In this document: positions 20,777 through 45,623 of the stretch, one piece after another
How positions within the stretch are numbered: the first letter of the stretch is position 1
How the letters are laid out: every line of letters begins with the position of its first letter
DNA from: a virus
DNA length: 46,359 nucleotides
Virus record (IMG/VR): IMGVR_UViG_3300045999_002334
Location: 1 to 46,359 of that record
Direction: 5' to 3' (one strand)
Program-made: the position numbers and the translations under genes
Notes under the pieces: model-generated
The model's input: only the letters and a program-made list of their open reading frames with translations
What the model was told of the DNA's origin: nothing
The model's database searches: none

Positions 20777-23700
20777 ATGCCATATTTGCGTTTGCCTGAT
20801 GGTTCCTACATGGAAGTGCCCGAAGGGGTATCACAGAGCGAAGCGCTCGCTCACGCAAGACAAAAATACGGTGATTTATTTAAGCAAGGTGCTAAAACAG
20901 GCCCTAAAACAGGTGCTGGCGCTGCACTCGGTAGCGGTACTGAATCTTTTATTAGCTCATTGCGCACAGGCGCAGAAGGCATATTCTCCCCTGAAGAAGC
21001 GGCGCGTAAAGGTTTAGAACGAGAAGAAGCCCGTGCAAGCAAGTATGCTGAGCAAGTTGGGTTAGACAAGCTAAAAGAAGCCTACGAAAAACAAGGTTTT
21101 ACTGGTGCTGTTGGCGAAGTAGGTCGTCAAATTCCTTTAGCTCTTCTTGAACAAGCGCCTAATATTGCGGCTACATTAGCTAGCGCTAAACTTGGCGCTG
21201 TTGCAGGTTCTCCATTTGGTCCTGTTGGTGCTGGTATTGGCGCTCTTGGTGGTGCTATTGCCCCTTCCGCTTTACAGCTTTTTGGTTCTAACATCCAACG
21301 GCAAGCGGCTGAACAACAGGCTACGGGGCAACCACTAGATATTAGCCGTAGCGCCGCAGCTGGTGCAACTGCGCTACAAGCCCCCCTTGATGTAGCTGCT
21401 ACCTTTATTCCGTTGGGCGGTAGGATTGCCGGTAAGATTTTTGGTCCGGAAGTTGAAAAACTTCTGATGCGTGGCGGTACAGAAGCTGCAGAAAAGCTAG
21501 CTAAAGAGTCGTTTGCTAAGACACTGACTAAAGGTGTGGCTATTGGTGCTGCCGCAGAAGTTCCGACTGAAGTTACACAGCAAATGCTGGAACGTGCGCA
21601 AGCAGGGCTTGACTTAACTTCCCCTGATGCGCTTAAAGAATACGGCGAAGTTGCATATCAGGCTAGTTTGTTGTCGCCTATTGGTGGCGCTGGTCGTTTT
21701 GCAGATAAGTCTGGTGCACGAGATCAGGTAGCAGCACAAGCACGAGAAAAAGAAGAAATTGCTCGTGTTGCCGAAGAACAACGTAAACAATCCCCAGAGT
21801 ACAGGGCTGAATTAGAAACCCAACGCAACGATTTGCAGGGGCGCATTACTGAAATTCAATCGGTTCTTAAAGACCCGCGTCTTGATAAAGAAGCCGTTGA
21901 AGAAGGTAAAAAAGAAATTAAAGACCTTCAGGCCCAAATTAAAGAAATCGTTGGCGAACTAAAAACAGCCGGCGCTCCAACTGAAACTTTTAGTATTGAC
22001 CAAGCTATTGCTGAGCGTAAAGCACAAGAAGAGGCAGAAGTTGCTAAAACTGCAGAAGCAGAGAAGGTTAAACAAGATTCACAGGGGTTCATTAAAGAAC
22101 ACCAAGCCCTTTCAAGCACAGTAGACTACCTGCAAACTAAATTGCAGAACGCCATGAAAGAGGGCAACCTCGATCAAATTGAGAATTTTGGTGACTTGCT
22201 TGACAAGAAAAATGCCGAGTTAGCGCAGCTATCTGACTTAGCACAACGTGCTGGTATAAACGTACGTACCCCTGAAGCGCAATTAAAGAGCGCTAGCGCG
22301 GCATTACGTAAAGCCCAAAAAAAACTATCTGACGCTAGCGAAGACGCAGATTTAACTCCAGAGAAACGCAAAGAATTAATTCAAGGTGTTAAAGATGCGC
22401 AGGCAGGCGTTGAAAAATTAAGAAAAGAAGTTGATGACCGTAAAGAAGGGCAGCAAGCAAGTGCTGAACTGGCGGCTAAACAACAAGAGCGTCTGCAAGG
22501 GCCTACCAAATACAACAAAAAAACCGGTCAATTTGAGGTTCTTAGCGAAGAAGAAATTAGCGAGCCAATTGACATGGCTGCGTACGAGCTCAAAGCTAAT
22601 GAGATTACCAACAACCGTCTTGCTGGTTTAGCGGCGGCAGCTACTGAACGGCAAAGAGCCTTCGGTGAAATGGATACTGCGCAAGAAGTTGCTACAAATA
22701 TCGAAGATGGCAAGTTGTTTAATACGTCTGCTAAGCTGCTTGGTCTGCCAACTAACGCTGGTAAAAATGGTAATTGGGATTTTAGCGACCCTAAAGAAGC
22801 GGGGCTTTTGCTTAAAGAAGTAACGTCTACGCTTGACCAAATTGAAAGAGACCGCGCGATAGCAGAACAGTATGGGATGGATTTACCTGCAGACCCACGT
22901 ACGCCATACCTAGAACAGATTTTTGAAAAGGTAAGCGGTGTAGCTGCAGTTGAAAAAGCGGAGTTACCTAAAGCTAAAGTAGATGCTCGTAGAAATCTAC
23001 GCTACCGTGAAGCTGAAATTCCAGCAGCTCAGAAGCTGTTCAAGCCCGACCTGCCAGTTGGTGAGTACACGCCTAAGCATCTTGAAAAAATACGTAATGA
23101 GCTTAACGAGGTAAATCGTTTGCTCAAAGCAGATGTTGATTTTGACGCATCAAAGAAAAAACAAATTGCTGCTCTTAAGCGTCAAGCAAGTAAAGCTAAA
23201 AAAACTGCAGAGAAAAAAGACATTTCTGCTGCAGATAAAAAAGCAGCTAAAGACTTAATCAAGCGTATTGATGCAGATATTGAACGGGTTAAAAATACAG
23301 ACCGGCTTAATGAAGGCGTAAAAGAAAGACTTGAACGCCGTAAAGCACGTCTTGAGAACGAGATTCTTGACGCTACCTTACCCATACGTGCCAAAGGTAA
23401 AGCGCCTAAATACCTGCGTATTGAGTCTGATATTGAAACGCTTAACAATCAACTAAAAGAAGCTACTGCTCCTAGTGAAATTAAACGTTTACAGAACCGT
23501 ATTGCTAATGCGGAAGCTAAACTGGTTAAAGTAAAGAAAACTTCACGGCTACCTGAAGGTGGCGCTAGAGGCGAGCGTGTTGTGGGTGCCGCAAAAGAAG
23601 GCACAGCGCTTACTGAAATCCAAGATGCAATTGACCAGCTTCGTAAGGGTGAGTTTATGGGTGGTGCTGCTGCCACCGAATCTACTCTTGAAGGGCAGTC

Positions 23701-26700
23701 TCGTCCGTTAATTCTTCGTGGTATCCGCAACGATGTAGACACGCTTATCATGGCGGCTATTTCTGACATCAACATTGGTCGTCGTAGTCGTAAAGAAGCG
23801 GACATGACCATCGACGAGCAGAAAGAGTTTGCTACTATTGTTGAGCAGCTGCTGTTAAGCAAAGCAGCTAAGGCTACAGGTTGGCGCGCTAAGATACAAA
23901 GAAACCCTGAAACTGCAGAAGAAACGGCTATTTCTCAAGCGTTTAAAGATGCCGGTTTTGACTTTGGTAATAAGACCGCTTACGAACAATACATTGATGC
24001 TATTGGCAAAGCTGGCTTACGCGACGAAGATATTGTTGCTAATTATGGCGAAGCCAATAAGCAAATCGAACGTATACGTAATAATCTTGACACGCTGATT
24101 GACAAGAAAAACGACCTTGAAGATAAGCTAAAAAGTGCTACTGATAGAGAGCTTGTTGACACCTACAAAAAGCAAATTGATCGTTTAGCTAAGTCCATAA
24201 AAGAAGCCGATAAAGCATACGACGACGCTAAGGCCGAATTTGTTAGGGGTGAAAAAGAAGGCAAGGGTGAGATTCGCACCGGTATGCGGGAGCAAGAGCG
24301 CATCGATATTAGAGATACGCTTGATAAACTTAAGCAATCGTTTGGTTCTGACCGTGCAGTATTAGTTGAAGCGCCGGAAATTACTGCTGAAAGCATGCCT
24401 GATATTGATGGCGAGCCAAAAGAATTATCCAAGCTGCGTAATACTGCTAATGCGTTCTTAGAATCTACAAACGGCATACTGCGTGGTTTAGGCGAAGCTT
24501 TACGTATCTTTACCCCTGTAGACGTGCGTAAGTCTAAAGCTATTCTTGACGACTTTAATACGCAAAAGCAAACCGCTCTTGACTTCATGCGGGACATTGC
24601 TGGCAGTAAAGAAGACAAAGCGTCGTTCTTCAACAAGGTAATTGTCGCTACCAAGAAAGATAAAGAAGCTGCTGAAGCTGAAGTAGAAGCTAACGCTGCT
24701 GAAAAAGAATCAAAGACAAAGGGCGATAAATTAATTAATGCTAGCTTACGTCGTAAAGCCGATAAACTTCGTAGCCAAGCTGATGCTTTACGTAAAGAAG
24801 TTAATAACGACATTAACGAGACGCTTGAGCAGGTTAGAAGTACGATTGCCGTTGCTGAAGGCGCTGCCAAACAAAAACTTGACGCTGACTTTAAACAGTT
24901 CTTTGACCAACTTAAAGAAAACAATTCAAACTACCTAGAAGCGTCTCAAGCGTACCAAAAGGCGCGCGACTCGTACTATACCAAGAAACGTGCGGAAGCA
25001 GGCGCTGCTAGAGCCGCCCAAGAAGGCACCGACAGAGAGCGCTTGGCTAAGTCCCTTAAAAAAGGTGAGCAAGAAGGCCGTCAAAAAGTAGGTCTTGGTT
25101 TACCCGGTAAAAAAGTAGAAGCGGTTGTAACGCAGACGGTATTAAGTAACTTAGCGTTCACTAACATGAGCAAAAAAGTTACTACCATGCGTAAGTTATT
25201 TGACGCAATTGGTAAAGCTGAAGGCGTTGAAGCCGTAGCAAATGCAAAAGAAGCCTATGCTAATGAAGTTATTAAAACTCGTGCTTATGCAGAACGTGAA
25301 GGTTTTGGTCTTGGTCAAGGCGAACTTGGTGATTTGTTTATCCAGCTTGGCAAAGTAGCAGCTGATTCTCCTGAAGGCAAGGCGCTTACCAGAGACATTA
25401 ACAAACTTCGCGCGCAAGCCGAAGAAGACGCCGCACGCCTTAGTGTTGTGCAGCGCCGCAGAAAAGAAGTCGGTCCTGAAGGGTCAATTGAGCGTGAAGA
25501 TAAACTTAAGTCTATTCAAGCCGAGCAGACTGAAGAAACCAAACGTAAGATTGAGCGCCGTAAGCAGGTTGTTACCGAGAAACAACGCACAAAAATACGT
25601 GAAACAGTTGAAAAAGAACTTGCCGCAGCTAACGCAAAAGAAATTAAAAAAGCCCCCGAAGGCGCCACAGCGGCGCAAAGAAAAGCAATTAACGCGGCCA
25701 ACGACAAGATCCGTATTGCAAGGCAAGCGTTACAAGCGGAGCTTGATGTTATTACGGGCGCAGATTTTGACGTTCTTAGAAACCGTGGGCGCATCAAACA
25801 AGAAGCCTCTGATCGGCTGTATAAAAAATCTGCGTTTGAAAGCCAACGTGATAACGAGCTAGCCCGGGTTCTTAAAAAGCAAGACTTAATTGAAACAAAA
25901 GCAACCGGCGCAAAACTTAAACCAGCCGAGCAAAACTTCTTAGATAAATACGGTTCAGAACTTACGGAAGCTGAAGAAGCGTTAATTAAAAAAGCTGAAG
26001 CCGTAGGCAAAGGCGCTAAAGGCTACATAGAAAGCAAAGAAACGGAACGTAAACAGCAAGTTGCTACAACAGAAATTCAACTACAAAAACCGCTTAGCGA
26101 AAAAGAAAAGTTTGATAGAAATGAACGCATCAAACAGGTTAAGGGCCGTGTAAAAGAAAAACTTCTTAGCGACGAATTTAGTAAAGCAGTTAAGCAGCTT
26201 GACGTTGAAAAAGCAGGTTACGAGTCCGTAGGTATTACTGAAGCGGAGTTCAAAAAACTCGTAACCAAAGCCGAAGAACAGCGCCTTAATTTCTTCCTTA
26301 ACGAGATCGAAGAGTCCAAGATTGACATAGATGACTTTAGCGGTCTGCACGAGGGCATGAAAGGCGACTGGGACCCACGTATTGAGAAACCAATTACTGG
26401 CGCCGGTGTAAGTTCTACTGTTGCACAACGTGTTGTTGACAAACTTAAACTGCCAAAAGGGCTCAAGGTTCTTGTTCTTGAGAAGCTGACGCCTACATTA
26501 CGCGGTGCTATTGCAAAGGGCGGCTACACAGATATTGAGATTGACGGTGTTCGTGGCGGTGTAATGCCTGACGGTACAGTCTTTGTTGTGGCTAATAACC
26601 ACGCAGATATTAAAGACGTTGAGCGTACCCTAGCGCACGAAATTACAGGTCACTTGGGCGTTGAGGGTGTACTTGGGCAGGCTGGCATGGATGCGCTTGC

Positions 26701-29698
26701 TAAGAAAGTTATTGCTCAAAACGGTAGCGTAGCTAAACTGGCTGACAAGTTGGGTGTGGGTGAAGATGCTCTTGCCGCTTACATGGCTGCTAAACAAGCT
26801 GGCAAGTCTGAAGAGTTTGCGCAAGCTAAAGCCCTACGTGAAGTTATCGCGCATACTGCTGAAGCTAGGCCCGATAAGAACTTTATTCAGAAAGCCAACG
26901 AGTTTATTAAAGCATTGGTCGGTGCGTTCCGTGCTGCCTTGCGTAAGATGGGTATTGATTTAGACATTAACACGTCGGACATCTACAAGCTACTGCGTGA
27001 TGCGCGTCGTTCTGAAAAGATTGCTCCCGGTATATACAAAGGGCGTGATGGTGAATACCAGCTAAAACCCGGTAAAGCAACCTATGGTCCAGGCGGTGGG
27101 GTTATTGGCCGTGGTGTTGACATGGCGATGGCTAAGCAAGCGCCTTTAATGGATCGTTTGTTCCCCGCTAATATCGGTTTATACCTTAAGCAAAAACTAG
27201 TTAGTGGCGCAGCTAGCTTTGAAAAAGTGCTTGATGTTAAAGGCGTTAAAAACTCCTTGTTGGCTAACCAAGCTAAATATTATATTTCGCAACACAATCA
27301 ACGATTTACCATTTCTGGCAACGCCACAACTATTGGCGTTCCAGTACTGCGCCAAGAAAAAGGCGGTAAGGGTTACGTGCTTGATGCTAAACCCGGCGCT
27401 AACTTAAAGAGCCTTGCTGAAGTTTTAGGCAGTATCGGCTGGGGTAACGCAGAAGGTATCCGTAACGCATATAGCCTGTACCGTATTAGCAAGCGTGCTA
27501 AGAATGTGGGCGTAGAAAAGCTGAACTTTAAAAAACCGCAAGAGATGGCAAAAATGCTTAAGGAAGTCGACGCTCTTGTCAAGAATAATGAGCAGCTTCG
27601 GGATGGCTTTAAAAAAGCAGATGCGATTTACGACCAGTACAACCGTGACCTCATGAATCTGTTGGTTCAAACAGGCGCCCTTCCAAAAGACAAAGCCATT
27701 GATTTGGTTAAAAACAACGACTATATACCGTTCTACCGTACAGAACAAAACGGCAACGTGGTGCTTGATTTAGGTGGTGCCGACCGTGTTCGTATTGGTA
27801 ACTTAAAAGACCAGCCCTACTTAAAAGAGTTGGTCGGCGGTGATGAGCGCATCGTAGATATTTATACCGGCGCTTTACAGAACACCAACCTATTGATTGA
27901 TATGGCGTTGCACAATCTAGCTTCTCGTAACGTCGCGTTTACTTTGGCTGACTTAGGCTTGGTAGACGTACGTGGTGATAAGGGCAAAGGCATTCGCAAG
28001 GGTAAAGGCCCAGCAGGCGATAAAGTTATTCGTTTTAGTGTGCAACCGGTTGACGACAAAGACGATGGCTTCCGTCACGTTATTGTAAATACTGAATCCA
28101 CCGGCATCCCATCCGAATATTTGGTTCAAGGCTTAGCTGGCGTAAATACAAGCGTGCCTTCCTTGGTTAAGAGCATGGGCTTCTTCTCACGCACTTTACG
28201 TTCTTGGGTAACTAGAAACCCTGTGTATGCTGCGCGTCAGATTATCCGTGATCCGTTTACCGCAGTTATGGCTAGTGGTGTGGATACTGTTCCTGTGTTG
28301 AGTTCTTTAAAAGCCATGGGTAAATCCCTTGGTAGAATGCGGCGTGGTGAAGTTGGCAGTAGCGAAATCGAGCGCTTAGGTTTGGTAAGCAGCAACGTGT
28401 TTACGGGCACATCTGAAGATATGCAGAAGATTTTGTTGCAAATTACCAGCGGTAAAGGCGGTTGGGAGTCTTACTTAGCTAAAGCAGACGCCCTAGCAAC
28501 CCAAGGTGATGCTGCAACGCGTGAAGTTGCTTTCAATAGTTTCCGTAAGCAAGGTTTGTCAGAACTAGAAGCAGCATTGGCCACATACGAAACAATGCCG
28601 TTTACTCAGCGGGGCACATCTTCAAGCCTGTTCTTGCTGTCCACCATGGTGCCGTTCCTTAACGCGCAGATTCAAGGTCTGAATGTGATATACAACGCGT
28701 TCACAGGAAAAGCTACTTTCCAAGAAAAGCTGCGTATTAAAGAAAAATTGTGGCAGCGCGGTATGTTAATGTTCGGCATGTCCATGGCGTACGCACTGTT
28801 AATGAGTGAGGACGAGGCATACCAAAACGCTAACGACGATGAAAAGTACAACAACTGGTTTGTATACGTGCCGGGTATTGATGAGCCAGTGCGCATACCA
28901 ATCCCGTTTGAATTAGGTATTCCTTTCAAGGCATTACCGGAAGCGATTGTTAATGTTATGCGCGGCGACAGAACTGCTGGCGAAGCTACAAAAGCACTTG
29001 CTAAAATGATTAAAAATTCTGTGCCTCTTGGCCCATCGTCTATACCGGCTGGTGCTAAAGCACCGCTTGAAGTAATTACTAATTACTCATTCTTTACCGG
29101 TCGTGACATTATTAGCGATCGCTTAGCTGGTCTTGACCCAGCCGAACGGTTTAACGCCAACACTACTGAGTTGGCTAAGTTTATCGGTAAAGGTACAGGA
29201 CAGATTCCAGTCTTGGGTGAGTACCTATCACCTGTTCAGATTGAGTACCTGTTGCGTGGGTACACCGGTAGCTTGCCTTTGGCGCTTGCTTCTATGGCTA
29301 ACCCTCTGTTTGGTAGCGCTGGTGGTGAAAAGCCAACTGCGCGTGCTAGCGAGATGCCTGTTGTTGGTTCCATATTCCAGCCTAAAGATGCAAGTGGTCT
29401 TGTTAATCGTGCATACAAAGACATTGAAGCAATCAACCGTGCAGGTCAGACCTACAAGAAACTGGAAGAAGAAGGTCGTGATGCAGATGCTGAATCGTAC
29501 GCCGACCGCTTTGCCGATGAGTTAAGCCTTGCTCCATTAGCAGGTGCATTTAAACAAAGAATGGGCGCATTGGCTAAGGAAGAGCGCATGATTAAAGCAG
29601 ATCCAAACATGTCAGGTGCAGAAAAGCGTGCGGAACTGGATGCTATTCGTCAAGATCGTATTGCATTGGCTAAAGAACTTATTAGCGAACGCGAGTAA
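20777..29698 (+). CDS. Giant internal/ejection protein with zincin-like and LPD-like domains
   Basis: A 2,973-residue protein, 19% of the window. Residues 1-35 read YLRLPDGSYMEVPEGVSQSE, a short beta module. About 115-320 is Gly/Ala-rich and membrane-competent, and about 330-1850 is Lys/Glu/Ala-rich, mostly coiled coil. At about 1860-2080 lies a zincin-like domain with H1954-E-I-T-G-H1959, then REVIAHTAEARP about 95 residues on, the usual place for a third zinc ligand. From about 2150 to the end is a region like the large polyvalent protein C-terminal domain (YIPFYRTEQNG, FFSRTLRSWVTRNPVYAARQ near 2465) with a hydrophobic span near 2662-2677. Such proteins are packaged in the capsid and injected with DNA. 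No RNA polymerase or lytic transglycosylase motif was seen. Confidence 0.75.
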   Translation: MPYLRLPDGSYMEVPEGVSQSEALAHARQKYGDLFKQGAKTGPKTGAGAALGSGTESFISSLRTGAEGIFSPEEAARKGLEREEARASKYAEQVGLDKLKEAYEKQGFTGAVGEVGRQIPLALLEQAPNIAATLASAKLGAVAGSPFGPVGAGIGALGGAIAPSALQLFGSNIQRQAAEQQATGQPLDISRSAAAGATALQAPLDVAATFIPLGGRIAGKIFGPEVEKLLMRGGTEAAEKLAKESFAKTLTKGVAIGAAAEVPTEVTQQMLERAQAGLDLTSPDALKEYGEVAYQASLLSPIGGAGRFADKSGARDQVAAQAREKEEIARVAEEQRKQSPEYRAELETQRNDLQGRITEIQSVLKDPRLDKEAVEEGKKEIKDLQAQIKEIVGELKTAGAPTETFSIDQAIAERKAQEEAEVAKTAEAEKVKQDSQGFIKEHQALSSTVDYLQTKLQNAMKEGNLDQIENFGDLLDKKNAELAQLSDLAQRAGINVRTPEAQLKSASAALRKAQKKLSDASEDADLTPEKRKELIQGVKDAQAGVEKLRKEVDDRKEGQQASAELAAKQQERLQGPTKYNKKTGQFEVLSEEEISEPIDMAAYELKANEITNNRLAGLAAAATERQRAFGEMDTAQEVATNIEDGKLFNTSAKLLGLPTNAGKNGNWDFSDPKEAGLLLKEVTSTLDQIERDRAIAEQYGMDLPADPRTPYLEQIFEKVSGVAAVEKAELPKAKVDARRNLRYREAEIPAAQKLFKPDLPVGEYTPKHLEKIRNELNEVNRLLKADVDFDASKKKQIAALKRQASKAKKTAEKKDISAADKKAAKDLIKRIDADIERVKNTDRLNEGVKERLERRKARLENEILDATLPIRAKGKAPKYLRIESDIETLNNQLKEATAPSEIKRLQNRIANAEAKLVKVKKTSRLPEGGARGERVVGAAKEGTALTEIQDAIDQLRKGEFMGGAAATESTLEGQSRPLILRGIRNDVDTLIMAAISDINIGRRSRKEADMTIDEQKEFATIVEQLLLSKAAKATGWRAKIQRNPETAEETAISQAFKDAGFDFGNKTAYEQYIDAIGKAGLRDEDIVANYGEANKQIERIRNNLDTLIDKKNDLEDKLKSATDRELVDTYKKQIDRLAKSIKEADKAYDDAKAEFVRGEKEGKGEIRTGMREQERIDIRDTLDKLKQSFGSDRAVLVEAPEITAESMPDIDGEPKELSKLRNTANAFLESTNGILRGLGEALRIFTPVDVRKSKAILDDFNTQKQTALDFMRDIAGSKEDKASFFNKVIVATKKDKEAAEAEVEANAAEKESKTKGDKLINASLRRKADKLRSQADALRKEVNNDINETLEQVRSTIAVAEGAAKQKLDADFKQFFDQLKENNSNYLEASQAYQKARDSYYTKKRAEAGAARAAQEGTDRERLAKSLKKGEQEGRQKVGLGLPGKKVEAVVTQTVLSNLAFTNMSKKVTTMRKLFDAIGKAEGVEAVANAKEAYANEVIKTRAYAEREGFGLGQGELGDLFIQLGKVAADSPEGKALTRDINKLRAQAEEDAARLSVVQRRRKEVGPEGSIEREDKLKSIQAEQTEETKRKIERRKQVVTEKQRTKIRETVEKELAAANAKEIKKAPEGATAAQRKAINAANDKIRIARQALQAELDVITGADFDVLRNRGRIKQEASDRLYKKSAFESQRDNELARVLKKQDLIETKATGAKLKPAEQNFLDKYGSELTEAEEALIKKAEAVGKGAKGYIESKETERKQQVATTEIQLQKPLSEKEKFDRNERIKQVKGRVKEKLLSDEFSKAVKQLDVEKAGYESVGITEAEFKKLVTKAEEQRLNFFLNEIEESKIDIDDFSGLHEGMKGDWDPRIEKPITGAGVSSTVAQRVVDKLKLPKGLKVLVLEKLTPTLRGAIAKGGYTDIEIDGVRGGVMPDGTVFVVANNHADIKDVERTLAHEITGHLGVEGVLGQAGMDALAKKVIAQNGSVAKLADKLGVGEDALAAYMAAKQAGKSEEFAQAKALREVIAHTAEARPDKNFIQKANEFIKALVGAFRAALRKMGIDLDINTSDIYKLLRDARRSEKIAPGIYKGRDGEYQLKPGKATYGPGGGVIGRGVDMAMAKQAPLMDRLFPANIGLYLKQKLVSGAASFEKVLDVKGVKNSLLANQAKYYISQHNQRFTISGNATTIGVPVLRQEKGGKGYVLDAKPGANLKSLAEVLGSIGWGNAEGIRNAYSLYRISKRAKNVGVEKLNFKKPQEMAKMLKEVDALVKNNEQLRDGFKKADAIYDQYNRDLMNLLVQTGALPKDKAIDLVKNNDYIPFYRTEQNGNVVLDLGGADRVRIGNLKDQPYLKELVGGDERIVDIYTGALQNTNLLIDMALHNLASRNVAFTLADLGLVDVRGDKGKGIRKGKGPAGDKVIRFSVQPVDDKDDGFRHVIVNTESTGIPSEYLVQGLAGVNTSVPSLVKSMGFFSRTLRSWVTRNPVYAARQIIRDPFTAVMASGVDTVPVLSSLKAMGKSLGRMRRGEVGSSEIERLGLVSSNVFTGTSEDMQKILLQITSGKGGWESYLAKADALATQGDAATREVAFNSFRKQGLSELEAALATYETMPFTQRGTSSSLFLLSTMVPFLNAQIQGLNVIYNAFTGKATFQEKLRIKEKLWQRGMLMFGMSMAYALLMSEDEAYQNANDDEKYNNWFVYVPGIDEPVRIPIPFELGIPFKALPEAIVNVMRGDRTAGEATKALAKMIKNSVPLGPSSIPAGAKAPLEVITNYSFFTGRDIISDRLAGLDPAERFNANTTELAKFIGKGTGQIPVLGEYLSPVQIEYLLRGYTGSLPLALASMANPLFGSAGGEKPTARASEMPVVGSIFQPKDASGLVNRAYKDIEAINRAGQTYKKLEEEGRDADAESYADRFADELSLAPLAGAFKQRMGALAKEERMIKADPNMSGAEKRAELDAIRQDRIALAKELISERE

Positions 29699-38158: not shown

Positions 38159-38464
38159 TTAGAACTTCGCAGTCTTGACGGCTTGGTCTAAGCGGTCAGC
38201 AAAAGCCGTTACGAACTTCTCATTGTGGGTCAGGTCGTTGCCCATGTCGTACAGAATTGCGTGGGTAAGCTCATGCCAAAAGGTATTGCTTCGCTCGTCC
38301 GCGGTGTACTTGTACCCTCTGTCAGGGTTGCCTTGGGCGATGGTGATGGTGTGTGCTGCCTCATCAAAAGAGCCTCTGCACAACGTCTTGCCAACCACTA
38401 CCTCGGATTTCGTGCGCACCAGATGGGGTGTTCGCCCTATGGTAACTTGTTTTGGTATCTTCAT
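38159..38464 (-). CDS. SprT-like zinc metalloprotease
   Basis: A 101-residue protein with the zincin motif H64-E65-L-T-H68 (FWHELTHAILYDMG), preceded by a beta region containing RGSFDEAAHTITIAQG, and followed by LTHNEKFVTAFADRLDQ, where N81-E82 may supply the third ligand. This short form is common in phages next to polymerase genes. Related cellular proteins cut DNA-protein crosslinks; the phage role is not known. Its end is directly followed by a small gene, and it overlaps the polymerase stop by four bases. Confidence 0.75.
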   Translation of the reverse strand: MKIPKQVTIGRTPHLVRTKSEVVVGKTLCRGSFDEAAHTITIAQGNPDRGYKYTADERSNTFWHELTHAILYDMGNDLTHNEKFVTAFADRLDQAVKTAKF

Positions 38465-40446
38465 TTAGCTTCTCCGTATCGTTTGTTACAACCTGTTTCA
38501 GCATCTAGCGGTATGCCCGGCATGTACGCTGGGTCTTTCACCATCTGCTCTAAAACCCAAGCCTCGGCTTCTTTGGCTTCGTTTTCGGGTACTAATACCA
38601 CTACCTCATCGTGCACGGTTAATACGCAGGAATACCTCTTTTGTATCCTGAGCATGCCGTCTGTCATTACGCATCGTGCTACTGCCTGCACGACGTTTTC
38701 TACTATCTTGCCCCCGTACAGCTTACGAATAGACTTTTCGTCGGCGCCATACGACCACTGGATACGGCCTTTTTCATCGGCGCTACCAGTTAAGTTGGGG
38801 TATTTTAAAGCTAAACCACTAGGTAATAGTATACGCTCTTTGTCAAAAGTTAAACATTTATATACATAGGGTTTACCCTGATATAGGCTATTGCTTACCA
38901 ACGAGTTGCACAGTTCCCAAAAGCTGACCACGTCCCGTGACTTCTCTCGGTAGATGTCGATGATCTTCTTGGCGGCTAGGCAATGCGTTAGCAAATCTTT
39001 GTCGGAGCAGGTGTGCGGTATTGCCGCCATCATCTCCATGTTCTTCTCCCAACCAATGAAGTCGTGCACGTCTTGGCTACTTACCCCCAACTGCTTGGCA
39101 AAAGTCTTGTCGTACATCGTTGGTGGTGCACCTAGGAAACCTGTTAGCAACTGCGCCGCAAAGCTAGCCCAGCCCATGCCATAACCACAACCTAGTAGCG
39201 CTGACTTTGCACTCTGTCTGAGATCGGGGTGGTCGTTCTTGTTAAGCCCCGGTATGCCGAACATCTGCGCACCGAAAGCGGCATACGCATCTTGGCCCGA
39301 CGCAAATATGTCGAGTAGGGGTTTGTAATCCGAGAGGTATGCCAAGACTCTAGGTTCAATCTGCGACAGATCGCAAACCACGAGCGTGTAGCCGTCCGGC
39401 GCTTGGATAGATTTACGTAGGAATGACCCCCGCTTGAGGTTTTGGAGATTAAGCCCCGAACCCTTGGACGCCGACCAACGACCTGTGTGTGCGCCGTAGT
39501 AGTTAAGCGGTACAGGGAGCGTGCCTCGCCCAGCAATATCGACAAAACGTTGCGCTCTTGTCCGCTCAAGCGTGCTCTTAACTTTGAGGCGTGCTTCACA
39601 AATGAGTGACACATCCTCGTTGTCGCTGTTAAGGAGGGCTTGAAAGAGGGCGTCGTTCTTGGCAAACGCATAGGCTTCTTTGCCTGTTGTCTTCGATATT
39701 TTCTTAGGAGGCGCAATGTTGAGTTTAAGCAATACGTCTGCAAACTGGTCATTACTAGCAAGCGCCGTTTCTTCAATGCCGATCTTTGCAAGTAGCGCTT
39801 CACGCTTTTCACGTTCATCAACAATCGCTTCATTTAACATATCCTCATCTAGTTCTAGTACGGGGTTGGTAAACATCTTGAGCGTCATGTCGATCAGCTT
39901 GAGTTCCTTAAGTGGAAAGCCGCCCTCAACTTCAAGCATCAAGTTCTCAAATATCTTCTCGCACAGGAACACGTCGTGCTTACAATACTCAGCAAGTTCT
40001 TGCTCTACTTCATACGGCAACTCCGTCATGCCGTTGGTACTGTGTACTGCGTTGCCTTTAGGCGGTAAGCCATAGGTATCCGCTAGTTTCATTAGGCTGT
40101 TGCCAGCTTCCACGCCACGTAGGGCACGAGCCATTGACAGGCTGTCAAAAATAAAGCAAGGCTTTGCCCCGTACACCCAGCTAAGGATTGAAATGTCGAA
40201 CTGCGCATTGTGCGCAAGCACCGCCGTCCGGTTCCAATCAACTGAGTCAACCCAGTTTTGTATGTCATCGTGCGATACCCATGTTATGTCTTCCTCCACG
40301 TCTAGTGTTTTGTAGCACAGGCCAAAGGCTTTGAAGCGTTCGTCTCTGACGTACTGCTCGGTCGTCATCTTGGACAGCGTGTACTCTTTGCTGTCCCAAC
40401 GTGTTTCAAAGTCAATGACAAGTATCTTGTCAAATGGTGCATTCAT
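38461..40446 (-). CDS. Family A DNA polymerase with 3'-5' exonuclease
   Basis: A 661-residue replicative polymerase (ATG 40446 chosen for its ATGA overlap; an in-frame TTG lies four codons earlier). Exonuclease motifs: D12-F-E14, N80 and D84 (VLAHNAQFD), Y154-x3-D158. Polymerase motifs: A with D359 (VVCDLSQIEPRVLAYLSD), B with R410, K414 and Y422 (LRQSAKSALLGCGYGMG), C with H612-D613-E614 (LTVHDEVVVLV). Residue 418, equivalent to E. coli 762, is Leu. It works with the primase-helicase at the operon's end. No 5'-3' exonuclease domain is present. The thumb region is short. Confidence 0.95.
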   Translation of the reverse strand: MNAPFDKILVIDFETRWDSKEYTLSKMTTEQYVRDERFKAFGLCYKTLDVEEDITWVSHDDIQNWVDSVDWNRTAVLAHNAQFDISILSWVYGAKPCFIFDSLSMARALRGVEAGNSLMKLADTYGLPPKGNAVHSTNGMTELPYEVEQELAEYCKHDVFLCEKIFENLMLEVEGGFPLKELKLIDMTLKMFTNPVLELDEDMLNEAIVDEREKREALLAKIGIEETALASNDQFADVLLKLNIAPPKKISKTTGKEAYAFAKNDALFQALLNSDNEDVSLICEARLKVKSTLERTRAQRFVDIAGRGTLPVPLNYYGAHTGRWSASKGSGLNLQNLKRGSFLRKSIQAPDGYTLVVCDLSQIEPRVLAYLSDYKPLLDIFASGQDAYAAFGAQMFGIPGLNKNDHPDLRQSAKSALLGCGYGMGWASFAAQLLTGFLGAPPTMYDKTFAKQLGVSSQDVHDFIGWEKNMEMMAAIPHTCSDKDLLTHCLAAKKIIDIYREKSRDVVSFWELCNSLVSNSLYQGKPYVYKCLTFDKERILLPSGLALKYPNLTGSADEKGRIQWSYGADEKSIRKLYGGKIVENVVQAVARCVMTDGMLRIQKRYSCVLTVHDEVVVLVPENEAKEAEAWVLEQMVKDPAYMPGIPLDAETGCNKRYGEAK

Positions 40447-41084
40447 AGTACGTACCAATCGTCAAAGCGGGATAGGTTGGGAAACTTTCTTGTGTACCCC
40501 TTGGAGGTAAGCAGGTCGTATATCTTCTCTCGCATAGGGGTGTAGTTGTGTTCGCAGGTAATTATCTTAATCTTGTACGCATCGAAGTCAAAGGCGTTCA
40601 GTATCTCGAACTCACTACCCTCGGTGTCAATCGAAAGGTATTCAATCTCTTTGGGGGCGTTGTACTTTTTGAGTAGGTCAAGCAAAGAGATGGTGGTTAC
40701 GGGGTACTTGGTGCCGCTCGTTCGTGTTGTGGCGTGTTCATCTCCGCTTGAGAACGTATTGATGGTGGATAGTTCTGCCGCATTTACTTCGTTGAACTCC
40801 AGCACCTCGCCTGATTTACTCCACACGCAGTCGTAATCAATATGGCATTTCCGGTTCTTGGCTAAGTCTTCTGCCCATACCTTGGCAGGCTCAGCTAGTA
40901 TCCCAGTCCAACCAAACTTGTTCTCAAGCAGGTACGTATTGCTTAGGTCAACGCCATTAGTAGCGCCGAACTCCACAAAGTACCCGCCTGTTTTGCAAGA
41001 CAGTTCGCTTAGTACAAAGATGTCTTGCTTGAGTTGTGATTTAGAACTGCTCTCCATGATGTCCGCCTGTTCTTGCGTAAACAT
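40443..41084 (-). CDS. FkbM-type methyltransferase
   Basis: A 213-residue SAM-dependent methyltransferase. The binding loop reads YFVEFGATNGVDLSNTYLLE (about 35-54), and GWTGILAEPAKVW (58-70) carries the acidic residue contacting ribose. Later motifs are SLLDLLKKYNAPKEIEYLSI and D153-TEGSEFEIL, hallmark of the FkbM family. Family members O-methylate sugars or other small hydroxyl groups. It follows two glycosyltransferases and overlaps the polymerase gene by four bases, pointing to methyl capping of a glycan. The substrate is unknown. Confidence 0.85.
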   Translation of the reverse strand: MFTQEQADIMESSSKSQLKQDIFVLSELSCKTGGYFVEFGATNGVDLSNTYLLENKFGWTGILAEPAKVWAEDLAKNRKCHIDYDCVWSKSGEVLEFNEVNAAELSTINTFSSGDEHATTRTSGTKYPVTTISLLDLLKKYNAPKEIEYLSIDTEGSEFEILNAFDFDAYKIKIITCEHNYTPMREKIYDLLTSKGYTRKFPNLSRFDDWYVL

Positions 41085-41860
41085 TAATCTTTCCTTGGTA
41101 GCTTACCGCTAAACGTGTACGTGCCGGTGTGCCCAAAGCTAGCCCATGGTGCGGCATATACCTTGAACCCTGCTTCCCGTGCGATCTTGCAGAAGTGGTA
41201 GTCCTCGGACAGCAGGCGGTTGCTCTCTTCATCAATGCTGGTTGCAAAGTATTCTTTGATAATCTTTACCTGACGCACCGTATCAACCGCATGGTACATG
41301 TCGTTGGTATAGCTTGGCACCTTGTCGGCTAAGTCTTCAAATACCTTACGCTTGATAAGCATAAAGCCTGTGCCACCATTGGCAATCTCCATAGCATCAG
41401 TTATTTTGCCAGTAGTAGATGCAGTACCATGGGGCAGGTTGACTACAAAGGCGCCTGTAAAGTTACTTAGCTGATCGGGTGGTACGCCACGCTTAACCGC
41501 CTCTGTTACCTCAACCCAGTTGATCTCTTTCTTGGGGTACACGCCGCAGATAATATCCTTATCGGCCTTGACCATGAGGGGAATGTCGTTGGGATTAAAA
41601 CTGATGTCAGCGTCAATGAACATCAGGTGGGTAGCATCCGTCTCCAAGAAGTCATAAGCCATGCTGTTACGAGCACGCGTGATAAGGCTTTCGTTCATCA
41701 TAAAGCTAAAGAACATCTGTATTTGATTAGCCCCACATACACCAACGAGTTGCATAATGCCGGAGGTGTACATGCCGGTACACATACCGCCGTACATTGG
41801 TGTGGCTACAAACAGTTTAGTCTGTGGTATTGCTGTTGTTACTGTAATTGCGTTGCTCAT
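41084..41860 (-). CDS. GT-A glycosyltransferase-like protein
   Basis: A 258-residue protein. ATG 41860 is preferred: it has GGAG 5 bases upstream and overlaps the previous stop as ATGA; ATG 41872 would put the start inside that gene. Motifs are TKLFVATPMYGGMCTG (about 14-29), RARNSMAYDFL (63-73), THLMFIDADISF with D83 and D85 as the metal-binding DxD, a GGTGFMLIKRKVF acceptor-side helix, and EDYHFCKIAREAGFKVYAAP near the end. It probably transfers a sugar from a nucleotide donor. It shares one base with the FkbM gene downstream. Confidence 0.75.
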   Translation of the reverse strand: MSNAITVTTAIPQTKLFVATPMYGGMCTGMYTSGIMQLVGVCGANQIQMFFSFMMNESLITRARNSMAYDFLETDATHLMFIDADISFNPNDIPLMVKADKDIICGVYPKKEINWVEVTEAVKRGVPPDQLSNFTGAFVVNLPHGTASTTGKITDAMEIANGGTGFMLIKRKVFEDLADKVPSYTNDMYHAVDTVRQVKIIKEYFATSIDEESNRLLSEDYHFCKIAREAGFKVYAAPWASFGHTGTYTFSGKLPRKD

Positions 41861-42555
41861 TTGTTTCTCCATGGTAAGTTTACGTACGCTCTTTTCATTA
41901 CTTCATTTCCTTCTTCAAACATTTTCATCAGGCGTTCAGGCGCTCGATAGTTAACTGTGGCTTCTCCGGTACAGCCAAAGCTAGGCAACGCTTTTGCGAC
42001 TGCTTTGTATAGCACCCTATCGGCACCCCATTGTCCGTAAAAATGATGTGCCACACTAACCAAGTAATCCCGCCTAAAGCAATAACAATTAGTATCAACA
42101 AAATTGATAGTGTGGTCATAAAACGTCGGGTACCTACCGAGCGCCTCGCAATCATCGTCAAAGACATATTCGCCTTGTTCATTAATAATCTTTCTTAGTG
42201 AGTACGACCACATAAGGTCTTTTGATTTGATCTTAGCGATCATGGTTTCTACATGGTTAGGTTCAAACCAGTTGTCCTCATCCAAGAATAGAATGTAGTC
42301 GGCGTTTACCATCAGAGGCATAGCGGCATAGACTCGGTGCCCGTACCAACCGCCACCGCCTACGTTTTCAGGTAGCATCATGGTTAAAGTTCTAGTCCAA
42401 TCATATTTAATCTCAGCCATGTCTTGAGCCGCTTTTGCACCATCTATTACAACAAGGTGTTCAGTAAATACGGTTTGGTTGTTTACGCTTTCTATTGCCT
42501 GCACCACCGTACTCTTCCCAGTAGTCGGGGTAATGACCATGATGCGCTCAGACAT
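41857..42555 (-). CDS. Family 2 glycosyltransferase
   Basis: A 232-residue GT-A enzyme. The N-terminal donor-binding strand-loop is MVITPTTGKSTVVQAIESV (6-24) and HLVVIDGA follows. The metal site is ILFLDEDNWFEPNH with D92-E93-D94. A GGGGWYGHRVYAAMP loop (about 66-80) and CYCFRRDYL (later acceptor region) are GT2-typical. It ends in an ATGA overlap with the next glycosyltransferase and overlaps the small upstream gene by eight bases. The sugar and acceptor are not predictable. Confidence 0.8.
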   Translation of the reverse strand: MSERIMVITPTTGKSTVVQAIESVNNQTVFTEHLVVIDGAKAAQDMAEIKYDWTRTLTMMLPENVGGGGWYGHRVYAAMPLMVNADYILFLDEDNWFEPNHVETMIAKIKSKDLMWSYSLRKIINEQGEYVFDDDCEALGRYPTFYDHTINFVDTNCYCFRRDYLVSVAHHFYGQWGADRVLYKAVAKALPSFGCTGEATVNYRAPERLMKMFEEGNEVMKRAYVNLPWRNK

Positions 42556-42709
42556 TACTAATATCCCTTTCCTTAATCATGGCATCAGCTATTTCGTAGG
42601 CACGTTTAACCGCCACCTGATCCCATGTCTTTTCTGAAGTATCAAACTTCCAATCGCCAGCGCATATACCAGCCATAATCTTTGCAGCAAATTCATCTCT
42701 TAAGTTCAT
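42548..42709 (-). CDS. Small acidic hypothetical protein
   Basis: A 53-residue protein (MNLRDEFAAKIMAGICAGDW...). ATG 42709 overlaps the radical SAM stop as ATGA and has GAGGA upstream; a longer reading from 42739 lies inside that gene. It is helical and acidic, with WDQVAVKRAYEIADAMIKER at the C-terminus, a pattern common in small phage proteins. It could be an accessory protein of the neighbouring enzymes, but no evidence beyond position exists. Confidence 0.65.
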   Translation of the reverse strand: MNLRDEFAAKIMAGICAGDWKFDTSEKTWDQVAVKRAYEIADAMIKERDISNV

Positions 42710-43569
42710 ATCTTCCTCACGTTCTCGCACGACTTGCAAATACTACACTTATCAAAACCATCGGCCTCGTTCATCTTAATGATCTGCGCTAGCTTCTCGC
42801 CCTGCATCATCTCTTCGTAGGTCTGTTCCAACAAGTTGCCAATCACATGCTTGAGGTTGTAGTCCATACAGCACAGAACCACATCACCATTTGGAAGTAA
42901 GACGTTCCTATCGTAGAAGGGGGTAGATGCACAAGTTAACGGGAACGTGTTGTGTGGCGTGATGCTTAGCGCTTGTCCTTTAACTTGCTCAGGGTCTAGG
43001 CTATCTGCCCTTGTATGCCCTTGCCAACCAGCCAACTGCTTAACATATGGGTGCAAGAACTCATGCACTACGCCTGATTTGTCCATAGTCATAGCGCCAA
43101 TACCGCATGGCACCTGTGTCTTAATCATGACTTCAAAGGCGTTCATCCATTCGGTTGTTGGTTTCCACCCTTTCATGTTGCCGTTGTTGTCAGGCAAGTG
43201 AAGCATCACTACTTCGACTTGGTCAGGGTGTGTCTCCAATACCTTGCGCACTTTCTCGGGGTCAGTCATGCCGTACAAGGTGGTATAGATTGCTACTTTA
43301 AAACCCATGTACAAAACCGTCTCCAGCATAGCGGTGCATGATGGGTTAGCCCAAGGCTCAGACATACCCGAGAAGTCGATGCGTGTGTTCTTGGGTAGCT
43401 TGGTAAGCACCTTCATCAAATCAACAGGTTGCATGTACTTGGTATCCGTACCGTATTGCGTACGCAAGTTATCTTGTGGGCAAAACGTACACATCAACGG
43501 GCAACCAATCATGGTGGTAAGTTCCATGACAGGCCCATCGTGGTGCACGATTCCATACTTTTCTCTCAT
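42706..43569 (-). CDS. Radical SAM / SPASM-type enzyme
   Basis: A 287-residue radical SAM protein. The cluster motif is C23-P-L-M-C27-T-F-C30 (CX3CX2C). SGMSEPW (67-73) fits the SAM-binding GGEP-like position. The C-terminal SPASM-like part has C213, then VLLPNGDVVLCCMDY (C233, C234), GNLLEQTYEEMM, and the trio C275, C278, C281, enough ligands for an auxiliary cluster. Such enzymes mature peptides or modify sugars and other small molecules. Located between a fucosyltransferase and two glycosyltransferases, a role in sugar modification is suggested, but peptide substrates are possible. Confidence 0.85.
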   Translation of the reverse strand: MREKYGIVHHDGPVMELTTMIGCPLMCTFCPQDNLRTQYGTDTKYMQPVDLMKVLTKLPKNTRIDFSGMSEPWANPSCTAMLETVLYMGFKVAIYTTLYGMTDPEKVRKVLETHPDQVEVVMLHLPDNNGNMKGWKPTTEWMNAFEVMIKTQVPCGIGAMTMDKSGVVHEFLHPYVKQLAGWQGHTRADSLDPEQVKGQALSITPHNTFPLTCASTPFYDRNVLLPNGDVVLCCMDYNLKHVIGNLLEQTYEEMMQGEKLAQIIKMNEADGFDKCSICKSCENVRKI

Positions 43570-44426
43570 GCCATCTCCTTTACTACGTTGTGTACAAACG
43601 CAAGCGCTTCGTTAAGGCTTGGTTCTTTCTTGAGTAGCGGTTGCTCGTACATGGTTTTGTACAGATCTTGGTTACTGTCCACATCGGCGATCAGCTTAAC
43701 AAACTCATTCATGTTCCGTAGCCGTTGGTAATTCAAAAAGGCATGGGCATTGAAGTCAGCGTCCATGTCACCGCTATAAATAGGCACAGTCAGTCCTGCA
43801 TACGCATCGACCAGCTTCTCCGTAACGTAGCCGTCATACACCGAGTTCTCAGGGCATAAGCAGAACTTGTACTCAGGTAACACAGCGAACTTAGACTTGC
43901 GCAATGAGTTGCCAAACATGTTGCCATACCCTTCTATGGTTTTGTACTGCGAGATACTGTTGAACATGTTGATGCGTAGGCTCTCAGGATTACCAGCGAT
44001 CATGGCGCAGAACTTACTCTTAATACTCATGTCCAGTCGCCTGCCGTTGGTAAGGCTGTTGATGGGAATCAGTTGCTCGTAACCATGGTTGTTAGCCCCA
44101 ACACGCCGTTGCTTCTGCGTAAAGCCGGGCCATGCCAACCGAGCGTACCATAGTGGCAGTCTGAAGTTCCTGCCGCCGTACGTATCGTAGTCAAACGACA
44201 GCGAGTAGTCGTACCCAGCATAACTAGGACGCATGTTCTCGCCGATGTACATGATGGTCTTTCGTGATTCTGCCTGTACATTACCAAACACCGAACTAAT
44301 AACTACGTCCGCTTCGTATGGGTTGTTTGTGTACTCGATGCCACCCAGCGCCGTGTTAAAGAAGAAGTCAAAGAAGTCTCCGTCAAAGGCGCCATCCCAA
44401 AAATTAATCACGCATACCTTTTTCAA
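43566..44426 (-). CDS. GT10-type fucosyltransferase
   Basis: A 286-residue protein that begins at TTG 44426. That start is supported by a strong GAGGAGG site eight bases upstream and a TTGA overlap with the preceding stop; no closer ATG exists. GT10 signatures: MYIGENMRPSYAGYDYSLSF (59-78) and FCLCPENSVYDGYVTEKLVD (188-207; E193-N194-S195, Y200, T202-E203-K204), then GLTVPIYSGD. Family members transfer fucose from GDP-fucose to GlcNAc in Lewis-type or O-antigen glycans. It opens the glycan-modification block. No GDP-fucose pathway genes are nearby, so donor would come from the host. Confidence 0.85.
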   Translation of the reverse strand: MKKVCVINFWDGAFDGDFFDFFFNTALGGIEYTNNPYEADVVISSVFGNVQAESRKTIMYIGENMRPSYAGYDYSLSFDYDTYGGRNFRLPLWYARLAWPGFTQKQRRVGANNHGYEQLIPINSLTNGRRLDMSIKSKFCAMIAGNPESLRINMFNSISQYKTIEGYGNMFGNSLRKSKFAVLPEYKFCLCPENSVYDGYVTEKLVDAYAGLTVPIYSGDMDADFNAHAFLNYQRLRNMNEFVKLIADVDSNQDLYKTMYEQPLLKKEPSLNEALAFVHNVVKEMA

Positions 44427-45106: not shown

Positions 45107-45339
45107 TGTATAGTCCTGTTCTTTATTGTGTTAGTAATTGTTTCACCTACTTGTGCGGCAGTTTCAATCAACAGCAACGGCAGATTTGTTTCGTCCATGT
45201 TAAGTCCGTACACTTTAACGCTGTCACTTGCTTCATCAACGACAATCACAACTGCTGAATGTGTTGAGTCTTCAACTGTGCACAAGGCCAACTGCTTTAC
45301 TACAAAGTCATACGCTTGCTCTTTGGTTCCTTGTTTCAT
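45103..45339 (-). CDS. Hypothetical protein
   Basis: A 78-residue protein with a helical start (QAYDFVVKQLALC), a short beta pair (SAVVIVVDEASDSVKVYGLN), and a helical end (LPLLLIETAAQVGETITNTI). This alpha-beta-alpha outline is common among small phage proteins. Both ends overlap neighbours by four bases. Role unknown. Confidence 0.65.
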   Translation of the reverse strand: MKQGTKEQAYDFVVKQLALCTVEDSTHSAVVIVVDEASDSVKVYGLNMDETNLPLLLIETAAQVGETITNTIKNRTIQ

Positions 45340-45623
45340 CCTATGTCCCTCAGTAAGGTTGATACGTCGTCGATGTTGTCTTCATTCACCACCAAGACGA
45401 ACCCTTGCGCCTGCTTGATCTTACCCATCTCGGCTTGTTGTAGCGGTGTGGGCTTGTTAGTACCCGCCTTACACTCGATAGCAACGAATACACCCCGATA
45501 ACAACACACAATATCAGGAACCCCACTACGCCCATAGCCACCAGTAGCAGGGAAGAAATAGTAAGCGCCGTTCTTTTTAAGTACATCGACGACTTTCTTT
45601 TTAACTTTGGCTTCGGGTGTCAT
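45336..45623 (-). CDS. VRR-NUC domain nuclease
   Basis: A 95-residue stand-alone VRR-NUC protein. After a helix (VKKKVVDVLKKNG) come YYFFPATGGYGRSGVPDIVC (P36-D37), VFVAIECKAG (E50 and K52), and TPLQQAEM (Q63). Together these form the PD-(D/E)XK active site. Stand-alone phage forms can cut branched DNA, so it may act as a junction resolvase or nicking enzyme. It overlaps both neighbours and is one of three nuclease-like genes in this operon. Confidence 0.85.
   Translation of the reverse strand: MTPEAKVKKKVVDVLKKNGAYYFFPATGGYGRSGVPDIVCCYRGVFVAIECKAGTNKPTPLQQAEMGKIKQAQGFVLVVNEDNIDDVSTLLRDIG

Follow-up and report, generated by a model that had tools for sequence, protein, structure and literature searches.

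A probable mobile glycan-building cassette ahead of DNA polymerase in a phage genome

Why would a phage carry a run of sugar-modifying enzymes directly ahead of its DNA polymerase? The question is raised by IMG/VR virus record IMGVR_UViG_3300045999_002334, analysed here over its complete length of 46,359 bases (the window). Its minus strand holds, from 44426 down to 40443, five enzyme genes, encoding a GT10 alpha-fucosyltransferase, a radical SAM enzyme (rSAM), a GT2 glycosyltransferase (GT), a GT-A-fold glycosyltransferase and an FkbM-family methyltransferase, together with one gene for a protein of 53 amino acids (aa). We argue that this block is very probably a mobile cassette for building a glycan. 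The fuller statement, that the cassette acts early and that its decorated glycan is placed on the host envelope, we put forward only tentatively.

The genes overlap end to end. Transcription would run from the upstream neighbour o55 (44590-44423) into the GT10 gene (43566..44426, TTG start, 286 aa), whose start overlaps o55 by 4 nucleotides (nt), and then through rSAM (42706..43569, 287 aa, 4-nt overlap with GT10), the 53-aa frame (42548..42709, 4 nt with rSAM), GT2 (41857..42555, 232 aa, 8 nt with the 53-aa frame), GT-A (41084..41872, 262 aa, 16 nt with GT2) and FkbM (40443..41084, 213 aa, 1 nt with GT-A) to the family-A DNA polymerase (38461..40446; PF00476 at 4.2e-30, phrog_17). The polymerase, all on the same strand but outside the cassette, starts at ATG 40446 with a 4-nt overlap with FkbM, or possibly at TTG 40458. 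Since overlaps of 1–16 nt occur throughout, polymerase included, this gene anatomy makes co-transcription and early expression of the cassette likely. The first-pass annotation of this DNA had described such an unbroken run ahead of the polymerase, and this holds: coordinates and frames are correct. In alignments of 20–31 relatives each for rSAM, GT-A, GT2 and GT10, the active-site motifs of the window copies are conserved. The relatives are under strong purifying selection (median dN/dS about 0.08–0.15).

Do these genes belong together, or have they only come to lie side by side? They might be unrelated morons, enzymes with separate substrates that are neighbours because early operons gather accessory genes; the small genes that often intervene in other phages, and the varying FkbM type and position of the 53-aa gene, would fit this. 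However, a search with rSAM found 76 viral loci, and an independent search with GT2 led largely to the same contigs. Among GT2 matches of at least 70% with sufficient sequence on either side, all 55 loci with room have GT-A no more than 1.5 kb downstream of GT2; rSAM is upstream in 29 of 32, and GT10 and an FkbM-type gene are present in 30 and 24 of 32, respectively. The order GT10-rSAM-GT2-GT-A is kept across dozens of contigs, and the full set sits on two backbones, of which the first has polA, helicase and primase genes and the second has ERF recombinase, a PD-(D/E)XK nuclease and RusA. A distant form of the set is seen in the T4-like contigs L058, L060 and L061, where GT2 and rSAM (about 61%) come directly before the sliding clamp, and in L063 rSAM precedes proteins that resemble, judged by eye, T4-type DNA polymerase and UvsX. 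The order kept across backbones, the correlated divergence of the core genes (below), the fusion of FkbM with rSAM in Synechococcus phage DSL-LC02 and the retention of GT10, GT2 and rSAM next to a GDP-fucose pathway in T4-like contigs make a chance gathering of morons improbable. The co-occurrence proposed in the first-pass annotation is thus supported, as is placement in an early operon, with a replication or recombination gene on 61 of the 64 GT2-bearing loci; neither scattering of the genes nor disruption of catalytic residues, either of which it took as refuting, was seen. Its five-gene order holds for the first four enzymes, while the FkbM type falls outside the orthologous set.

The set is also modular. 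The GT2 and GT-A pair occurs without rSAM and GT10 beside phage primase-helicases (L135-L150), and elsewhere with other GTs or methyltransferases in their place. GT2 and GT-A form a constant core, with GT10, rSAM and methyltransferase as exchangeable outer steps, which we read as a constant inner glycan with variable outer decoration. We found no description of a phage rSAM-GT-fucosyltransferase cassette in the open-licence literature.

Does the cassette then belong permanently to the replication operon? Its proteins still share 70–85% identity, in round terms about 75%, across phages that have only about 40% polymerase identity. Pairwise identities correlate closely among replication genes (0.94 for polA and helicase, 0.95 for helicase and o298), less so among core cassette genes (0.46–0.64), and between cassette and replication genes the values range from -0.28 to 0.45. 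Cassette divergence thus does not follow that of the phage backbone, as would befit a horizontally moving unit. Empty sites point the same way. With the window helicase and a neighbouring protein as bait, we collected 52 distinct relatives having both polA and hjc, the gene for an Hjc-like resolvase/nuclease upstream of the cassette (45336..45623 on the minus strand in the window; PF01870, phrog_93). In 51 of them no cassette gene lies between hjc and polA, and the remaining one has GT-A; the median spacing in the empty relatives is 295 bp, versus 4,877 bp in the window. Two relatives with polymerases 88% identical to that of the window (L355/L356) have essentially empty sites of 911 and 813 bp, while in L438 (polA 82%) GT-A (71%) occupies the same slot together with a protein that looks FkbM-like by eye. 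Because the slot is empty in 51 of 52 relatives and holds a smaller version in L438, the cassette is best seen as an accessory insertion, dispensable in this lineage, and a fixed place in the replication operon is rejected.

What would the cassette make? We propose the cytoplasmic synthesis, by this accessory cassette in an early operon, of a short decorated glycan, whose first sugars would be transferred by the constant pair. GT2 matches PF00535 (Glycos_transf_2) at 32.8 bits against a cut-off of 23.3, D92-E93-D94 and other residues are invariant among its relatives, and its profile search picks out bacterial enzymes of the same family, among them 6h1j, SpsA and chondroitin synthase. GT-A belongs to phrog_1574 (2.3e-49), with only sub-threshold Pfam matches (Anp1, GT2) and nothing significant in a sequence search against solved structures; its motifs D87-A-D89, SED and HxG are invariant. 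Its structure model (predicted local distance difference test, pLDDT, 80) gives weak matches of GT-A type to the LH3 glycosyltransferase (collagen GT) domain, TarS, GtrB and the PBCV-1 capsid GT, which in our view indicate a generic GT-A fold.

L-fucose would then be added by GT10 from GDP-fucose. The enzyme exceeds the curated Pfam cut-offs for PF00852 (57.7 against 23.9 bits) and FucT_N (36.8 against 27.2 bits), aligns through the FucT motifs with the Helicobacter pylori fucosyltransferase 2nzw (phmmer 1.3e-23) and keeps G62-E63-N64 and E203-K204 in an alignment of 20 relatives. No GDP-fucose synthesis genes are present in the window, and this phage would need the GDP-fucose made by its host. 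Some relatives would bring their own: a GDP-mannose 4,6-dehydratase and a GDP-fucose synthase-like enzyme adjoin GT10 in the T4-like contigs L062/L063, and a GDP-mannose dehydratase and a fucose synthase are annotated beside GT10 in S-SKS1. The fucose/lipopolysaccharide gene sets of the cyanophages S-SCSM1 (PMC9602691) and S-SKS1 similarly combine fucosyltransferases with GDP-fucose synthesis, but no orthologous GT2-GT-A-rSAM set was matched in them, and the window lineage differs in its probable use of host GDP-fucose and in its early-operon genes.

The most unusual member of the set is rSAM, which we propose dehydrogenates or epimerises one sugar hydroxyl. Both of its domains score above the Pfam cut-offs (Radical_SAM 30.7 bits, SPASM 42.5 bits), and the CxxxCxxC site (C23/C27/C30) is invariant over 31 relatives, as are C213, C233, C234, C278 and C281. 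Despite the Pfam match, the full seven-cysteine SPASM motif CX9-15GX4C-gap-CX2CX5CX3C is absent from the same alignment: the first half is there (C213-x14-G228-x4-C233), while of the second half, C275-x2-C278-x2-C281, only C278 and C281 are invariant. Because this second half is incomplete, we regard the enzyme as twitch-like; C213, C233, C278 and C281 fit the four-cysteine, single-cluster auxiliary pattern seen in the twitch domain of BtrN, and not that of a complete SPASM domain. BtrN is also the best match in both profile and fold searches (fold E 6.4e-10, model pLDDT 90), followed in the fold search by DesII and SpeY among others, with several peptide-modifying enzymes lower down. BtrN, SpeY and DesII act on aminocyclitols or sugars and share the fold and the CxxxCxxC site, so the model matches a BtrN/twitch-like enzyme resembling sugar dehydrogenases, although at only about 16–18% identity to BtrN and, unlike it, phage-encoded alongside GTs. 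The closest cellular relatives (39–53% identity) are alphaproteobacterial, and those examined belong to surface-polysaccharide clusters (Rhodoblastus and Acetobacterales metagenome-assembled genomes), with GT4, GT17, GT2 and, in Rhodoblastus, GT4-FkbM fusion genes as neighbours; a deltaproteobacterial relative (37%) has an O-antigen ligase alongside. The bacterial relatives in such surroundings span 37–50% identity. Unlike the phage genes, the bacterial ones sit on chromosomes, are rare (1 of 385 alphaproteobacterial genomes sampled) and have no GT10-GT2-GT-A cassette around them. Host identification through these relatives was tried and, given this rarity, no host is assigned. In one contig, L076, the rSAM homologue is surrounded by several c87 genes, members of a second radical SAM-like family with proteins of about 447 aa.

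The chain would finally be capped through O-methylation by FkbM, which matches Methyltransf_21 (PF05050) at 58.9 bits against a cut-off of 22.7. The FkbM type of the window is found in only 3 rSAM loci, while a different FkbM-like protein (c6) lies beside rSAM in 43; this is why we take it for an exchangeable capping enzyme and not an orthologous member of the conserved set. The 53-aa protein, searched as a 63-aa open frame, matches the C-terminal ends of PHROGs 2201, 37111 and 20565, all of unknown function, and among relatives its gene either separates rSAM from GT2 or precedes GT10. Its resemblance to the ends of unrelated phage proteins and its shifting position led us to reject it as a ribosomally synthesised and post-translationally modified peptide precursor for rSAM. 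A second candidate substrate, the cluster c10, comprises predicted secreted N-rich proteins of about 100 aa (e.g. L026:11374-11676) with repeated NSPYNWKNSEYNYN-type units, a YDNxGNRxGY tail and no Pfam match; it occurs near 32 cassette loci but neither in the window nor in L002 and so is not required. The family calls of the first-pass annotation hold for GT10, GT2, FkbM and rSAM at Pfam level and for GT-A through phrog_1574 and the model, with the correction that rSAM is twitch-like. The fucosylated, methylated and radical-modified glycan that it envisaged is in keeping with these families, their motifs and the GDP-fucose genes of L062/L063.

Where would such a glycan go? The acceptor is the step of which we are least sure, while the order of the steps, the exact sugar chemistry and the benefit to the phage are likewise proposed rather than observed. 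The glycan would be made early in infection, together with DNA polymerase. We consider an envelope glycan of the host, such as the lipopolysaccharide core, to be its likeliest acceptor, and modifying it would mask the infected cell from competing phages (superinfection exclusion); we infer this from the early timing, the bacterial context of rSAM and the lack of known base-hydroxylating enzymes. The idea of a host-surface target had already been raised in the first-pass annotation, and it stays at that level of inference, the glycan chemistry being the part that gained support. Phage gtr serotype-conversion clusters (gtrA/gtrB/specific gtr) provide a parallel, since there too phage glycosylation is thought to alter the host surface and exchangeable terminal enzymes act on a constant core. 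They rely, however, on a flippase, a bactoprenol-linked donor and a membrane GT, whereas all cassette enzymes appear soluble and include rSAM and FkbM. Several points weigh against an envelope acceptor. The window proteins scanned include no membrane GT or flippase, so that an O-antigen-type route would need host machinery, nor any GtrA/GtrB-type Pfam match, GtrB turning up only among the weak fold matches to GT-A. Early expression would suit DNA modification too, and distant homologues of rSAM are found among genes for tail fibres or the head.

These homologues, found between tail-fibre genes in DSL-LC02, which has the FkbM-rSAM fusion, and in the head module of vir524, would suit virion decoration, in which early-made, persisting enzymes glycosylate a phage structural protein and thereby shield virions or tune adsorption. 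Protein acceptors also suit soluble cytoplasmic GTs, and the GT-A fold resembles the PBCV-1 capsid GT and the LH3 collagen GT domain. That resemblance is weak (template-modelling scores, TM, 0.3–0.5), however, the close family sits consistently in early replication or recombination operons, and the core pair is common to phages of different backbones, which ties it to no single structural protein. We therefore consider virion glycosylation rather unlikely, and the host envelope the better candidate.

The neighbourhood of GT-A relatives in T4-like phages brings in a further alternative, DNA hypermodification, in which a modified base would be glycosylated by GT-A and GT2 and built on by the remaining enzymes, guarding the DNA against restriction. 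The T4-type sliding clamp gene is closely preceded by a phrog_1574 GT in all 56 contigs with room, and likewise in the annotated phages phiM12, DLP_6, Cr30, RHph_I1_18 and OspM_OC, in four of which the GT gene is annotated as hypothetical (DLP_6-type loci L201-L280; L079, L080, L192-L194). T4 alpha-GT is known to bind the clamp gp45 (PMC13216743). In 7 of 80 DLP_6-type loci a TET/JBP gene is found no more than 6 kb from the GT-A gene. The T4 DNA glucosyltransferases, alpha-GT and beta-GT, which have the GT-B fold, are likewise phage GTs encoded with replication genes. However, they need hydroxymethylcytosine, and we found no source of a hydroxylated base for the window cassette: PF00303 (thymidylate synthase/hydroxymethylase) and PF12851 (TET/JBP) gave no match in the window or in cassette contigs of 42–67 kb, records that may be incomplete, and in two 65-kb genomes the early regions show no other base hydroxylase. 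TET/JBP genes, linked to GT-A in DLP_6-like phages, show no enrichment in a second sample of T4-like phages (1 of 25 with GT-A, 1 of 12 without) and so do not prove DNA glycosylation. PhiM12 carries the GT-A gene with only a canonical ThyA; its thymidylate synthase homologue was rejected as a dCMP hydroxymethylase on account of the motif PFN, which we take to be a ThyA signature. The dispensability of the cassette and the polysaccharide context of the bacterial rSAM relatives also speak against a DNA target, which we judge unlikely, as the first-pass annotation did. Its most elaborate form, in which phrog_1574 is a replisome-linked DNA GT that founds a complex oligosaccharide on DNA with GT2, GT10, rSAM and FkbM, the base being activated by an unrecognised enzyme, seems to us very improbable.

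Some observations from the same genomes stand apart from the cassette. AAY80_030 of Stenotrophomonas phage DLP_6 (L079:3398-4744), annotated 'SNF2 DNA repair protein', matches TET/JBP at 1e-20, and several IMG/VR contigs have genes like it upstream of GT-A. The DNA of DLP_6 and Cr30 may be TET-modified. L217, L240, L252 and L276 encode short divergent thymidylate synthase homologues (about 215–220 aa where complete, RSNDVVFGY) 3–4.4 kb upstream of the GT-A gene, possibly pyrimidine hydroxymethylases. One of two 65-kb cassette phages (L177/L178 or L181/L182; genomes G010/G009) has a C5-cytosine DNA methylase (PF00145, 2.3e-57). Finally, 20777-29698 on the plus strand of the window encodes a 2,973-aa protein whose sole Pfam match is the LPD38 large-polyvalent-protein domain (residues 2679-2863).

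Returning to the mobile glycan cassette, our analysis goes beyond the first-pass annotation in identifying the block as an insertion that moves horizontally and has no counterpart in the closest relatives, with a constant GT2 and GT-A core and exchangeable outer enzymes. Phage glycosylation genes are usually viewed as fast-changing, isolated additions, and the cassette departs from that view: its 70–85% identity across such divergent backbones implies strong, repeated selection for one particular glycan. The rSAM would be a rare phage-encoded sugar dehydrogenase or epimerase working with GTs, and the relatives with empty sites, together with the smaller GT-A and FkbM version, offer a natural series for step-by-step testing. 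The acceptor, if found, would point either to a trick against competitors that is common among aquatic phages or to a new kind of decoration on virions or DNA. Phage-encoded glycan modification is already known; a mobile, strongly conserved GT/rSAM cassette with exchangeable caps is a new form of it.

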